Of a DNA stretch of 37,571 nucleotides, positions 19,446-22,233 are shown one piece after another. Position 1 is the stretch's first letter, and the number at the start of each line of letters is the position of its first letter. The position numbers were made by a program, and so were the translations under genes. The notes below the pieces were generated by a model. The model saw only the letters and a list, made by a program, of their open reading frames with translations. It was not told where the DNA came from and made no database searches. The stretch comes from Gammaproteobacteria bacterium (lineage in GTDB: Bacteria; Pseudomonadota; Gammaproteobacteria; Xanthomonadales; Wenzhouxiangellaceae): the NCBI GenBank assembly GCA_009908385.1, contig JAAAPE010000144.1, forward strand, positions 1 through 37,571. Reading direction: 5' to 3'.

Positions 19446-20213
19446 ATGAAAATCGCAAGCTGGAACGTCAACTCGCTCAAGGTGCGCCTGCCGCAGGTGC
19501 TCGACTGGATGGAACACCAGCGCCCGGACGTGCTCGGGCTGCAGGAAACGAAACTCACCGACGACAAGTTTCCCGTCGAGGCCATCCGCGAGGCGGGATA
19601 TCACGTAGCCTTCGCCGGGCAGCCGACCTACAACGGCGTGGCGCTGATCGCGCGCGAGGAACCACTCGACGTCGTCACCGAGATTCCGGACTTTCCCGAC
19701 GAACAGCGCCGCGTGATCGCCGGCACCGTCGGCAACGTGCGCGTGATCAACCTCTACGTGGTCAACGGCAAGGAAGTCGGCTCCGACAAGTACGACTACA
19801 AGCTTCGCTGGCTCGAAGCCGTGCACGAATGGATCGCCGACGAACTCATGCACCACGACAAGCTCGTGGTCATGGGCGACTTCAACATCGCCCCCGACGA
19901 CCGCGACGTCCACGACCCCGAGGCCTGGCACGAGAAGATCCTCTGCTCCACGCCCGAGCGCGAAGCCCTGAAGAAGATGCTCGACCTGGGGCTGCACGAC
20001 AGTTTCCGGCTGTTCGAGCAGCCGGAAGCGACGTTCTCATGGTGGGATTACCGCGCAGCGGCCTTCCGCCGCGGCCTGGGCCTGCGCATCGACCTCGTGC
20101 TGTGTTCCGACGCGCTCAAACTGGCATGCGCCACCAGCTTCGTCGACAAGGAACCGCGCAAGAACGAGCGACCCAGCGACCACGCGCCGGCGGTCGCCGA
20201 GTTCAAGATCTGA
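19446..20213 (+). CDS. xthA: Exodeoxyribonuclease III (AP endonuclease)
   Basis: This 255-residue DNA repair enzyme cleaves 5' to abasic sites and digests 3' ends. Its exonuclease-endonuclease-phosphatase motifs are all visible: KIASWNVNSLKVR (Asn7), LQETKL (Glu34), GDFNIAPDDRDVHD (Asp145, Asn147), GLRIDLVL and SDHAPAVAEF (catalytic Asp-His near the C-terminus). The length is typical of ExoIII. It starts 26 bp after the deacetylase-like gene but is functionally unrelated to that cluster. Its TGA stop is the first three bases of the large palindrome that follows, so nothing separates the coding end from the repeat. Confidence 0.96.
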   Translation: MKIASWNVNSLKVRLPQVLDWMEHQRPDVLGLQETKLTDDKFPVEAIREAGYHVAFAGQPTYNGVALIAREEPLDVVTEIPDFPDEQRRVIAGTVGNVRVINLYVVNGKEVGSDKYDYKLRWLEAVHEWIADELMHHDKLVVMGDFNIAPDDRDVHDPEAWHEKILCSTPEREALKKMLDLGLHDSFRLFEQPEATFSWWDYRAAAFRRGLGLRIDLVLCSDALKLACATSFVDKEPRKNERPSDHAPAVAEFKI

Positions 20214-20232
20214 CGCGGGGTTGGTTATTTCG

Positions 20233-20264
20233 TTTTTTGGTTTTTTGGTTTTTTGGTTTTTTGG
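20233..20264 (+). repeat. Four tandem copies of TTTTTTGG
   Basis: Four exact 8-bp units follow the xthA stop by 19 bp, at the left end of the palindrome. The right arm has a single copy (as CCAAAAAA near 21295-21302), so the array expanded on one side. It may also act as a U-rich terminator tract for xthA. Such arrays are prone to slippage. Confidence 0.85.
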
Positions 20265-20343
20265 TTCGGCATCTGCCTGGCGTGGCGGGGCGGCTGCGCC
20301 GCGGGGCCTATGACGTTTTCGGCACCTGGCACCCGGCACTGTA

Positions 20344-20375
20344 GTCCCGGACGGAGCGCAGCATAGATCCGGGAC
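20344..20375 (+). repeat. REP-like 32-bp palindromic unit, copy A
   Basis: GTCCCGGA and TCCGGGAC arms flank a GC-rich middle. It lies in the left arm of the large palindrome, in opposite orientation to copies B and C. Confidence 0.75.
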
Positions 20376-21105
20376 CTTCTTGGCGGTGGCAGGGCGCCGG
20401 GCTTTTCTCAGCCGTAGCTCACGGGGTTGGCGACACCGGGCGCTGTGCAGCCCTCGACAAGTCAAAGGCGTTCCGGCCGGCCTGCTTCGCAGGCTCTTGC
20501 GCCGGGTAACTTTTTTCCTGCGCGAAAAAAGTAACCAAAAAACGCGCTTAAAAGACGCCGGTCAGCGTCTCAGAATTCGGGCTGTGTGGGGGCTCCAGAA
20601 CTCCGATTACGACGTTGTTCGAGCCCGGCTGGATTCGCCGGGACTTCGGCAGAGGCCGGTAGTGGCCCTGGTCGGGACCTTGGACTTTCGGAGGACACGA
20701 AACCGCGCGCTTCGCGCGCGCAAGCGTCTGGGTGGGCAAAGCCCCTCAGCCGAGAGATCGTGGCTCCGCCAGCCGAAGCCGGGGTCATCGAGGTCGTGCC
20801 GTCCTCGTTCGGTTTACGCCAAGGTCTCGCTAGTGCCAACCGAGAATCAGACCGGTTTCGAGCAGCGCCGCAGCCGGGATTCTGGAGCCCCACCGATTCC
20901 AACTCCTGCGGCGCATCCGGCATCTTTCAAGAGCCCTTTTGCTTACTTTTTGGTCATTGAAAAAAGTAAGTCGCCGCAAGACCCCGCGAAGCGGGCCCGG
21001 GCGAAATCGCAGTTGACTTGTCGAGGTTCCCACTGCGACCGGCGTCGCGAATCCTCGATCCACGGCAGGAAGCAACAACCCGGCGCCCTGCCATTCTGCA
21101 AGAAG

Positions 21106-21137
21106 GTCCCGGATCTCCGCTTCGCTCCGTCCGGGAC
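21106..21137 (-). repeat. REP-like 32-bp palindromic unit, copy B
   Basis: It has the same GTCCCGGA/TCCGGGAC arms as copy A, in the reverse orientation and with a slightly different middle (TCTCCGCTTCGCTCCG). It has no partner in the left arm, so it breaks the symmetry of the palindrome. Confidence 0.75.
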
Positions 21138-21183
21138 TACGGTTCAGTAAGGGCAGCAGGACGCGCGGCGATTCGGCGACAAG

Positions 21184-21215
21184 GTCCCGGATCTGCGCTG
21201 CGCTCCGTCCGGGAC
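21184..21215 (-). repeat. REP-like 32-bp palindromic unit, copy C
   Basis: It has the same arms as copies A and B. Most of it lies in the 78-bp perfect inverted pair with copy A. Copies B and C form a tandem 78 bp apart. Confidence 0.75.
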
Positions 21216-21330
21216 TACAGTGCCGGGTGCCAGGTGCCGAAAACGTCATAGGCCCCGCGGCGCAGCCGCCCCGCAACGCCAACCGGATGCCGAACCAAAA
21301 AACGAAGGAACGAAAAAAACCAAACCCGCG

Positions 21331-22233
21331 TCAACCCAGAATCGCCTGGGCCCCGCCTTCCAGGTTGTAGACCTGCGTGTAGCCCTGCTTGCGGTAGTGC
21401 TCGGCGTACTGCATCGAGGTCTGGCCGACATTGCACACGAACACCAGCGGCTGGTTGGGGTCGCCATCCTTGAGCTCGGCCATCAGGTCGGCGTCGAGCG
21501 GACGGGCGAAATCCAGGGGCTTTTCGGCGCGGTCGGCCTCGCCGCGGGTGTCGATGACCAGCAGGCCCTCGCCCGAATTGATGCGCTCCTGCAGCTCGGC
21601 GGGGGTGATCTGCTTGACCGGCGCGGGCGCACCCGGCAAGTCGAGCTTCAGGCCTTCGCCCTGCACGGTCTCGACCCAGTCGATCGTCGCGCCGCGCGCC
21701 CGCTGGGCGCTGGCCAGGTCCATGAGCACGGTGATGCCGTTCGACTCGGTCTCGATCTCGCTGCCCTCCTTCGGTCCGACCTGGAACTGGGCTTCCCAGC
21801 CCCCGTCGATGGCGAAATGCAGGTGATTGCCGGGATACGCGTCGAGGAACTCGCGAATCTTCTCGGCCGCCTTGTCGGTAATGGTCATTTCCGGGGGCGT
21901 ACGGTCCGGCTTTTCCAGGCCGAAGAGCTCGTGCAGCTCACCGCTGTTGAACATCTCACCGATGATGTCGTTGCCGCCGACGAGTTCGCCGTCGATATAG
22001 AGTTGGGGAATGGTCGGCCAGTCGCCGTAGACCTTGATGCCCTCGCGGATGGTCTCGTCCTCGAGCACGTTGTAACTGGCGTAGTCGCCGGCGAGCAACT
22101 GGTCGAGGATGCCCGCGGTCTTCGCGGAGAAGCCGCATTGCGGCATCTTCGGCGTGCCCTTCATGTAGAGCACGAAGCGGTGCGAGGCAATCTGCGATTC
22201 GATCTTTTCACGTACAGCGGGGTCGAGGCTCAT
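21331..22233 (-). CDS. Monothiol glutaredoxin - A-type-like - rhodanese fusion
   Basis: This 300-residue protein has three domains. Residues 1-108 are a Grx4-type monothiol glutaredoxin with CGFS (Cys33) and the glutathione/Fe-S features WPTIPQLYIDGELVGG. Residues about 113-198 look like the HesB/IscA A-type fold (MTITDKAAEKIREFL, GGWEAQFQVGP, LMDLASAQRARGATIDWVE) but contain no cysteine, so this domain cannot ligate a cluster in the usual way, like the degenerate A-type domain of NfuA. Residues about 205-300 are a rhodanese domain with the candidate catalytic Cys267 in VCNVGQTS. Iron-sulfur cluster transfer with sulfur handling is the reasonable role. I chose ATG 22233 because the Grx domain begins there. 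The stop codon lies at the edge of the large palindrome. Confidence 0.9.
   Translation of the reverse strand: MSLDPAVREKIESQIASHRFVLYMKGTPKMPQCGFSAKTAGILDQLLAGDYASYNVLEDETIREGIKVYGDWPTIPQLYIDGELVGGNDIIGEMFNSGELHELFGLEKPDRTPPEMTITDKAAEKIREFLDAYPGNHLHFAIDGGWEAQFQVGPKEGSEIETESNGITVLMDLASAQRARGATIDWVETVQGEGLKLDLPGAPAPVKQITPAELQERINSGEGLLVIDTRGEADRAEKPLDFARPLDADLMAELKDGDPNQPLVFVCNVGQTSMQYAEHYRKQGYTQVYNLEGGAQAILG

Follow-up and report, generated by a model that had tools for sequence, protein, structure and literature searches.

A palindrome between two convergent gene ends

The 37,571-nt stretch of DNA analysed here (the window) comes from a Wenzhouxiangella-like draft MAG that is 85% complete. 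It contains xthA, an exonuclease III-like gene (19446..20213, plus strand; PF03372), and, on the minus strand, a glutaredoxin/Fe-S/rhodanese fusion gene (21331..22233; PF00462 and PF00581 over the cut-off, PF01521 just under it). The sequence from one stop codon to the other (20211..21333) is palindromic. The initial annotation described a palindrome reaching from one stop codon to the other, with a 78-bp perfect inverted pair in its arms. Self-alignment shows that the pair is exact (20285..20362, plus strand; 21197..21274, minus strand) and that the symmetry extends far beyond it, the whole element being palindromic apart from a centre of ~200 nt. An outer stretch of 144 bp matches in inverted orientation at 92% and is followed inward by ~306 bp that match at 74% (20338-20636 versus 20844-21143), flanking a central spacer unmatched by the inverted halves (20637..20843). 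Local alignment of one half with the other scores 297, whereas none of 100 base shuffles scored above 32. Terminal inverted repeats, a criterion for MITEs, are therefore present in this self-alignment.

Both ends of the window element read TGACGCGGG inward, as had been noted from the sequence, although among the copy ends listed this is a property of the window copy only; the other ends consist of variable T-rich octamer arrays. In the window such arrays occupy 20221..20266 (plus strand; TTTTTTGG-type units, the number of which varies in other copies) and, inverted, 21293..21324 (minus strand). GTAG-tagged REP-type hairpins are evident in the sequence of the left arm (20341..20375, plus strand) and at two positions of the right arm, inner (21106..21140, minus strand) and outer (21184..21218, minus strand), which belong to a direct repeat, D2. 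The window displayed no match to Rfam up to E=1, except for one sub-threshold microRNA match. A coding function was rejected, as the four inner ORFs matched no Pfam family and no reading frame was open in all of 16 cores compared.

A dispersed family, absent from the same site in relatives

BLAST of the own genome revealed 161 matching places, several per copy, confirming the earlier view that the palindrome belongs to a repeat family. Genes were called on both sides of 18 family stretches and on one side of a further 20. Identity to the window is 80-91% for the 29 larger matches among those listed. Copies flanked by a called gene on each side are 777-1216 bp long in 17 cases, the 18th being a 278-bp fragment, and share a core of ~690 bp defined by family comparison (20452..21143 in the window; 678-708 bp in 16 cores). 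These lengths led us to reject the whole unit as a short REP or REP dimer. Neither the lack of other copies nor symmetry confined to the 78-bp pair, either of which would have counted against the initial annotation, was observed.

The comparison with relatives that had been proposed shows that, where both flanking genes are retained, the gap between them is 9-51 bp in 11 of 14 loci. The element is absent from the orthologous site in most relatives; those without the core give similar short matches to the GTAG hairpin region. Within the own genome, 19 contigs have a family match no more than 100 bp from an end, and a dispersed repeat would explain why many contigs of the MAG break inside it. 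The same contig ends, in a draft assembly, are what could be cited for chance or an assembly artefact, a reading already refuted and left with virtually no probability: independent genomes, some of them single-contig, share the design described below, and the symmetry of the palindrome is far above that of shuffles.

The same design recurs across Gammaproteobacteria

In otherwise different sequence, A/T hairpins that face inward and share the signature ACTTTT-N-AAAAGTARSCAAAA recur in Gammaproteobacteria. Within the order, 59 of 200 genomes carry the signature, the number of matches per genome ranging from 0 to 43, and within the class 32 of 377 genomes do so; a reversed-pattern control gave none in the 200 order genomes and a single match in each of 4 of the 377 class genomes. 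A wider survey found matches in 34 of 396 genomes, all inside the class, while the genomes surveyed outside it (about 225) all gave 0; match totals from this survey are inflated, one hairpin being counted as many as three times if its CCC terminus can slide. Where adjacent matches lie <1.5 kb apart they face inward in 36 of 36 cases among the matches listed (hand counts from listings, 11 from the 396-genome survey and 25 from outside it).

Inverted alignments of 64-96% were obtained in other genera, from locus sets mostly picked for two close hairpins and thus an unfair sample of palindromes. The fair sample, loci chosen by signature alone, gave an inverted alignment >60 nt in 9 of 22 loci and none in the other 13, indicating that many signature matches represent a copy that is single, decayed or truncated. 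The label 'Pseudomonas-like' used below derives from the match of one element to two Pseudomonas plasmids; a second element gave three short matches to plasmids, covering 5-7% of the query. At one locus (L174) the inverted arms enclose two small ORFs.

A bias towards gene 3′ ends

In the own genome 8 of 18 copies lie between convergent genes, compared with 61 of 398 of all gene pairs (Fisher p=0.002; subtracting the copies leaves a background of 53/380 pairs), and 9 of the 18 lie between tandem genes. Gene 3′ ends adjoin the elements at 39 of 55 ends in this genome and at 52 of 70 called flanks in other genera, where five more flanks have no call; all of these calls come from crude custom scripts, and the caller used for other genera was wrong for at least one flank (L045, minus strand). 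The initial proposal that the element targets convergent gene ends is supported in its 3′-end preference and in the convergent excess, but is too narrow because half of the copies separate tandem genes.

This placement could indicate that the host keeps the element as a two-way gene-end module, either a bidirectional terminator, in line with the two-way transcription end suggested in the initial annotation, or a 3′-end cap, with the copy number reflecting the spread of a useful part. The 3′-end bias in both data sets is consistent with such a role, as is the inversion, which confers independence of orientation, and the grouping of element arms by lineage in a tree (from topology alone). We consider the proposal unlikely, however, as the number of signature matches varies so widely between genomes of the order, half of the own copies lie between tandem genes, and a tail-to-tail bias is general among small bacterial repeats, according to the available text of PMC2718517 and PMC3733652. 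In addition, terminator-like sites (a GC hairpin with a T run) numbered 4 compared with 2.2 (sd 1.6) in shuffles, which is not clearly in excess; promoter-like sites were likewise not clearly more frequent than in shuffles.

Covariation points to a probable triple-helix pseudoknot

The left structured unit of the window (20505..20547, minus strand) has a stem, GGTAACTTTTTT/AAAAAAGTAACC, with one A.A mismatch, a loop, GCGCG, complementary over 5 bp to CGCGC at 20543-20547, and an A6 linker (20537-20542). Judged from this sequence, the minus strand of the unit could adopt a triple-helix pseudoknot fold, the mirror match here being trivial as an A6 run is compared with an A6 run. The right unit (20927..20970, plus strand) comprises an A/T hairpin (20942-20970) and an A-rich linker; it lacks the loop pairing, and such pairing is weak or absent in the right units of the own genome.

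Across the class, three relations covary: the stem, the loop with a downstream segment, and the linker with the stem as its mirror image. The longest loop/downstream complement averages 4.15 in 67 units (reduced from 70 distinct units), compared with 2.93 and 2.87 in displaced controls, and was reached in 0 of 2000 permutations. In a second set of 78 strings from 26 genomes, distinct strings among the matches listed in the 396-genome survey from genomes outside the first set, the mean is 3.88 (permutation maximum 3.1; 0/2000), or 4.0 with one string per genome (permutation maximum 3.27); this set includes near-duplicates from the same genomes and G801, leaves out G411, G344 and G552, and draws many genomes from family f141, which is also the family of the first-set genome G552. 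In a fixed register, 85 of 108 cells pair in 27 units, compared with 23-46 when slid. The linker/stem mirror table, built from 56 units that passed stem and purine filters and counting only positions within purine runs, contains 317 A-A and 48 G-G matches and 8 mismatches, a result reached by none of 2000 permutations, and a direct-repeat control was never better than the mirror match (0/22). The second set gave 82 A-A, 29 G-G and 3 A-G. These class-wide tables and the control show that the linker follows the stem in the way needed for base triples. Identical mirror covariation would arise from a triplex at the DNA level (H-DNA).

The loop, mirror, register and second-set tests are the unselected ones. 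For the stem itself, the search pattern predetermines the positions that it covers. The pairing of 95-99% in a set of 20 rows is biased because the rows were hand-picked as good examples of equal length. Wobble asymmetry, counted without positions out4 and in4, favours the outward strand, almost wholly through one position, without which the count is 6 versus 7.

A second indication of strand comes from Rfam. In Pseudomonas-like genomes and in G173 the unit contains, in its inner part, a match to TwoAYGGAY (RF01731) over the cut-off; where this match adjoins a hairpin it lies on the outward strand, which carries the U-rich linker, in 29 of 30 cases among the matches listed (hand counts from listings). 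RF01731 exceeded the gathering score at five loci (L245, L246, L256, L257 and L259), while the first 12 other-genus loci had no Rfam match at that score, RF01731 being sub-threshold in L203. Neither the window, searched up to E=1, nor the own genome matches it, and it was not found in 12 of 22 genomes tested. Two genomes with 0 signature matches do contain it, G037 and, at a score below the cut-off, G175.

Homopurine mirror repeats inside a palindrome, together with convergent enrichment, might instead reflect H-DNA or a cruciform acting on double-stranded intergenic DNA, through supercoiling or replication-transcription conflict. We regard this as very improbable, since such a structure does not require the loop/downstream pairing, and the strand agreement of RF01731 points to RNA. 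In the structure that we propose, the loop of each A/T-rich hairpin would pair with a segment across the A-rich linker to form a pseudoknot. As the linker mirrors the purine strand of the stem, it could occupy the stem groove on the outward-reading strand as a U.A-U/C.G-C triple helix, which, judged from the sequences, probably forms in RNA. The units are inverted and, therefore, a transcript that runs through the element from either neighbour would contain one foldable unit in its distal half.

Spread of the element

The own genome contains no match to Y1_Tnp, the domain of RAYT transposases, within its 85% completeness, in agreement with the initial suggestion that the element is, apparently, non-autonomous. 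Y1_Tnp is present in 24 of 30 genomes tested; it was not found in the own genome (G000), G024, G173, G104 or G187, which carry 9 to 43 signature matches, and RVT_1 was not found in 22 of the 30. RAYT and reverse transcriptase were thus set aside as required movers because they were not found in several high-copy genomes. A check for target-site duplications gave no signal, with a mean of 4.35 versus 4.46 in mismatched ends (17 internal copies, the octamer ends of which blur the boundary), and no autonomous transposase-bearing relative was noticed among the fetched family copies. With neither a duplication nor a mover found, we infer mobility from the copy number and the absence from relatives, and trans-acting machinery is the probable agent.

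These observations also bear on whether the element is a MITE- or BIME-like selfish repeat, its conserved fold being the single-stranded DNA substrate of a transposase (HUH or other) and not an RNA. The similarity of the copies, the empty site in most relatives, the GTAG-REP hairpins within the arms, the T-rich ends that abut native terminator hairpins in some copies (by eye) and the frequency of Y1_Tnp are consistent with this account. We judge it improbable given the high-copy genomes in which Y1_Tnp was not found, the rarity of RVT_1, and the results for duplications and autonomous copies.

In the reading we favour, with about half of our credence, the element is dispersed and non-autonomous, joins a structured unit to its inverted copy, lies preferentially at gene 3′ ends and could fold on the outward strand. 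The outward RNA structure, through 3′-end protection or protein binding, is the probable selected trait. It is a more tentative and somewhat doubtful step to propose an undescribed class of Gammaproteobacteria mobile element that carries an outward RNA triple-helix pseudoknot at each end, gives messages a protected, protein-binding 3′ structure, and of which TwoAYGGAY is the visible part in some lineages. If so, whichever neighbour is transcribed, its message would gain such a structure. The inverted-dimer design suggests a device that works in both directions at the 3′ ends of genes. As the three covarying relations are kept in unrelated sequence from many genera, the structure is testable.

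Comparison with known systems

We found no description of the motif or the element class in the open-licence PMC papers listed by our searches. Catalogues of dispersed repeats in bacteria usually list short hairpins, whereas here the repeat is a kilobase inverted dimer. The GTAG REP class is described in PMC3733652, and GTAG REPs and BIMEs with RAYT transposases are the subject of that paper and of PMC2817692. The present family resembles them in its intergenic location, palindromic form, 3′-end bias and the GTAG hairpins in both arms; however, GTAG REPs are 20-40 bp, a size and type displayed only by the three embedded hairpins, while the present elements are ~0.8-1.2 kb long and conserve a structure of another kind. 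The suggestion that the element is REP-derived holds for the hairpins it carries, but that identity is unsupported because the part shared with other families across the class is a different structure. The R0, R2, R26 and R200 repeats of Pseudomonas fluorescens are also dispersed and intergenic, with some inverted repeats and a tail-repeat-tail bias, but their sizes in the available text of PMC2718517 are 50-352 bp; compared by description only, R26 (352 bp) or R200 (320 bp) might each represent one half of an element of this type.

Telomerase-RNA-type structures are H-type pseudoknots with major-groove U.A-U triples. The outward strand here has the same order, S1a, U-rich linker, S2a, a loop with S1b, and S2b, and its linker bases track the stem bases as triples require. 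It differs in that C.G-C triples are also predicted, and the likeness, which is known from sequence alone, is not a claim of homology.

The TwoAYGGAY RNA motif (RF01731; Weinberg et al. 2010, PMC2864571), for which CsrA binding has been proposed (PMC4333381), overlaps the unit itself: its matches lie inside the elements, at some loci with one per arm, and this candidate RNA would correspond to the unit's inner part in Pseudomonas-like genomes and some others. An Rfam family would thus be placed within a larger element. By length and alignment the model (168 positions) covers one inner module of the unit, and neither the A/T triple-helix pseudoknot nor the inverted dimer is mentioned in the available text of PMC2864571 and PMC4333381.

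A kilobase palindrome between two stop codons

Self-alignment of the segment at 20211-21333 bears out the initial annotation of this region as a kilobase palindrome. The halves match almost up to the centre, with 92% identity across an outer 144 bp and 74% across the next ~306 bp, leaving a central ~200 nt unmatched. The 78-bp inverted pair is exact, and the element does fill the space between two stop codons, that of an exonuclease III-like gene (xthA) on one side and that of a glutaredoxin/Fe-S/rhodanese fusion on the other. The shared TGACGCGGG ends, also proposed as a feature, are present in the window copy but, among the ends listed, were seen in no other copy. 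Each arm contains an A/T hairpin with an A-rich linker after it; together with the downstream segment these make up a predicted structured unit, two of which, inverted, make the element. In the window the left unit, on the minus strand, retains the hairpin, the loop pairing and the A-run linker, while the right unit retains the hairpin alone.

Copies in the same genome and their gene context

Further copies in the same genome, a 2.94 Mb metagenome-assembled genome (MAG) in 155 contigs that is 85% complete, were found by BLAST at 161 places, several per copy. Among the matches listed, the 29 larger ones are 80-91% identical to the window copy, and the family has a core of ~690 bp. The 35 stretches fetched plus the window comprise 18 that have called genes as neighbours on either side (17 measure 777-1216 bp, the other is a 278-bp fragment) and 20 with a gene called on one side only; three stretches are shorter than 150 bp. 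Copies end in T-rich octamer arrays of variable number, some of which, as judged by eye, adjoin a native terminator hairpin or stop codon, and no target-site duplication was found at these copies. In 19 contigs a match lies within 100 bp of the contig end; the assembly thus breaks at the repeat and the true copy number is uncertain. Contigs C154 (9496 in locus L164) and C54 (16555 in L140) have identical flank sequence beside a copy, which is either an assembly duplicate or a segmental duplication.

The neighbours of the 18 two-sided stretches are convergent in eight cases, tandem in nine and divergent in one. Against 61 convergent pairs among 398 adjacent gene pairs on the same contigs (53/380 after subtracting these 8 and 18), the excess has a Fisher p of 0.002, which is approximate because the pairs include some crude gene calls made within elements. 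Single ends face a gene 3' end in 39/55 cases (P=0.001; one array duplicate left out), and in other genera 52 of the 70 called flanks are gene 3' ends, with five further flanks lacking a call. A bias of this kind is known for REPs (PMC3733652) and for Pseudomonas repeats (PMC2718517).

The orthologous site in relatives

Judged by the fusion protein, Wenzhouxiangella sp. 15190 (L031, 92%) and W. sediminis (L032, 91%) are the closest named genomes. Neither has an element match in the 4 kb after the fusion gene; xthA is also not found within this distance in L032 (after 4897). Both genes were located at 14 loci at ≥70%, and at 11 of these (L033, L034, L036-L041, L043, L046 and L050) only 9-51 bp separate the match ends. 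The remaining gaps are 3.7 kb in L031 (4900-8565), 698 bp in L035 (4901-5597), where the loose hairpin signature was not found, and 1430 bp in L045 (70%), which contains an inward pair of signature hairpins differing in sequence from the window's, with arms only 52% alike.

A class of inverted elements

Matches to the oriented pattern ACTTTT-N4-24-AAAAGTARSCAAAA are present in 59/200 genomes and 20/72 genera of the order, with no match for the reversed control, and in 32/377 genomes and 30/271 genera of the class, where the control gave one match each in four genomes. Three of the 15 relatives listed from the same genus carry it. A longer pattern, which misses the present genome because it demands CCC, occurs in 34/396 genomes of the phylum, every one inside the class. 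Among the matches listed, all 36 signature pairs less than 1.5 kb apart face inward. Palindromes of unrelated sequence also occur at loci in other genera; they are 415 to 835 bp long where a single alignment spans the element, and their arms are 64-96% alike. Not every locus is palindromic: at 22 loci retrieved by signature only (L174-L195), an inverted alignment longer than 60 nt is present in nine and absent in 13, some being cut by contig ends. The elements are a class rather than a single family. At L174:1497-2712, two small ORFs of 117 and 97 aa without assigned role sit between inverted arms (169 bp, 79%) that bear the signature hairpin, as though they were cargo of the element.

When 42 arms of 21 elements are placed in a tree, they cluster by genus or family rather than all left arms together, which suggests that the two halves of an element either are re-made or evolve in concert. 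Within a genus (G000, the present genome, with G024; the f12 group), arms cluster by side; L045 and G315 are exceptions.

A predicted triple-helix pseudoknot

Among 85 units, read loosely, stem positions out2 (85/85; T-A 72, C-G 9, G-C 4), out3 (83/85) and in1 (82/85; C-G 35, T-A 32, G-C 15) are Watson-Crick paired, while out1 is C-A or A-C in 31/85. The loop can pair with the downstream segment over at least 4 bp in 44/67 units, whereas two displaced controls give 15 and 13; the mean was reached by none of 2000 permutations, and the result is the same with one unit per genome (n=36). In a second set of 78 strings, 40 show such pairing, with a mean of 3.88 versus a permutation mean of 2.69 (maximum 3.1). 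At a fixed register, 85/108 cells pair across all units of that geometry versus 23 to 46 when slid, with 6/27 units pairing just 0 or 1 of 4.

At 6.98 of 8 positions the linker mirrors the purine strand of the stem (permutation maximum 5.89; A-A 317, G-G 48, G-A 3, A-G 5), and outside the pattern the second set gives A-A 82, G-G 29 and A-G 3. A direct-repeat alignment was never better (mirror better in 17, tie in five; n=22). Hoogsteen triples need such a mirror relation; on the outward-reading strand they are predicted to be U.A-U and C.G-C, the linker running parallel to the purine strand. Telomerase-type pseudoknots have the same strand order.

Of 22 genomes tested against the Rfam candidate RNA TwoAYGGAY (RF01731), eight have matches above its cut-off (G173, G037, G552, G717, G778, G746, G847 and G898) and two below it (G104 and G175); none was found in the other 12, which include the hairpin carriers G000, G024, G034, G071, G117, G176, G192, G299, G500 and G938. 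Among the matches listed, RF01731 less than 150 bp from a hairpin lies on the opposite, outward-reading strand in 29/30 cases, some of them under cut-off (G778 7/8, G173 9/9, G717 6/6, G746 4/4, G552 2/2, G898 1/1); the sole same-strand case is L256:1485-1671. G037 and G175, with RF01731 but no signature hits, speak against a strict link. Wobble asymmetry in the sense direction (A.C 38, G.T 6; out4 and in4 left out) also points to the outward strand, but rests on one position.

Proposed mobility and mechanism, and known systems

Since it is multi-copy and most relatives lack it at this site, the element is taken as mobile; we put at about even the chance that it is non-autonomous and mobile with the RNA structure as its conserved part. 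No mover was found: the RAYT transposase domain Y1_Tnp is missing from five carrier genomes, and the reverse transcriptase domain RVT_1 from 22/30 genomes searched. A transcript entering from either side would first meet a unit in reverse and after it the second unit in foldable orientation, so that inversion would make the device orientation-independent. Searches of open-licence literature found no description of this inverted dimer or of its predicted triple-helix pseudoknot; of its parts, the REP hairpins and the inner RNA module were already known.
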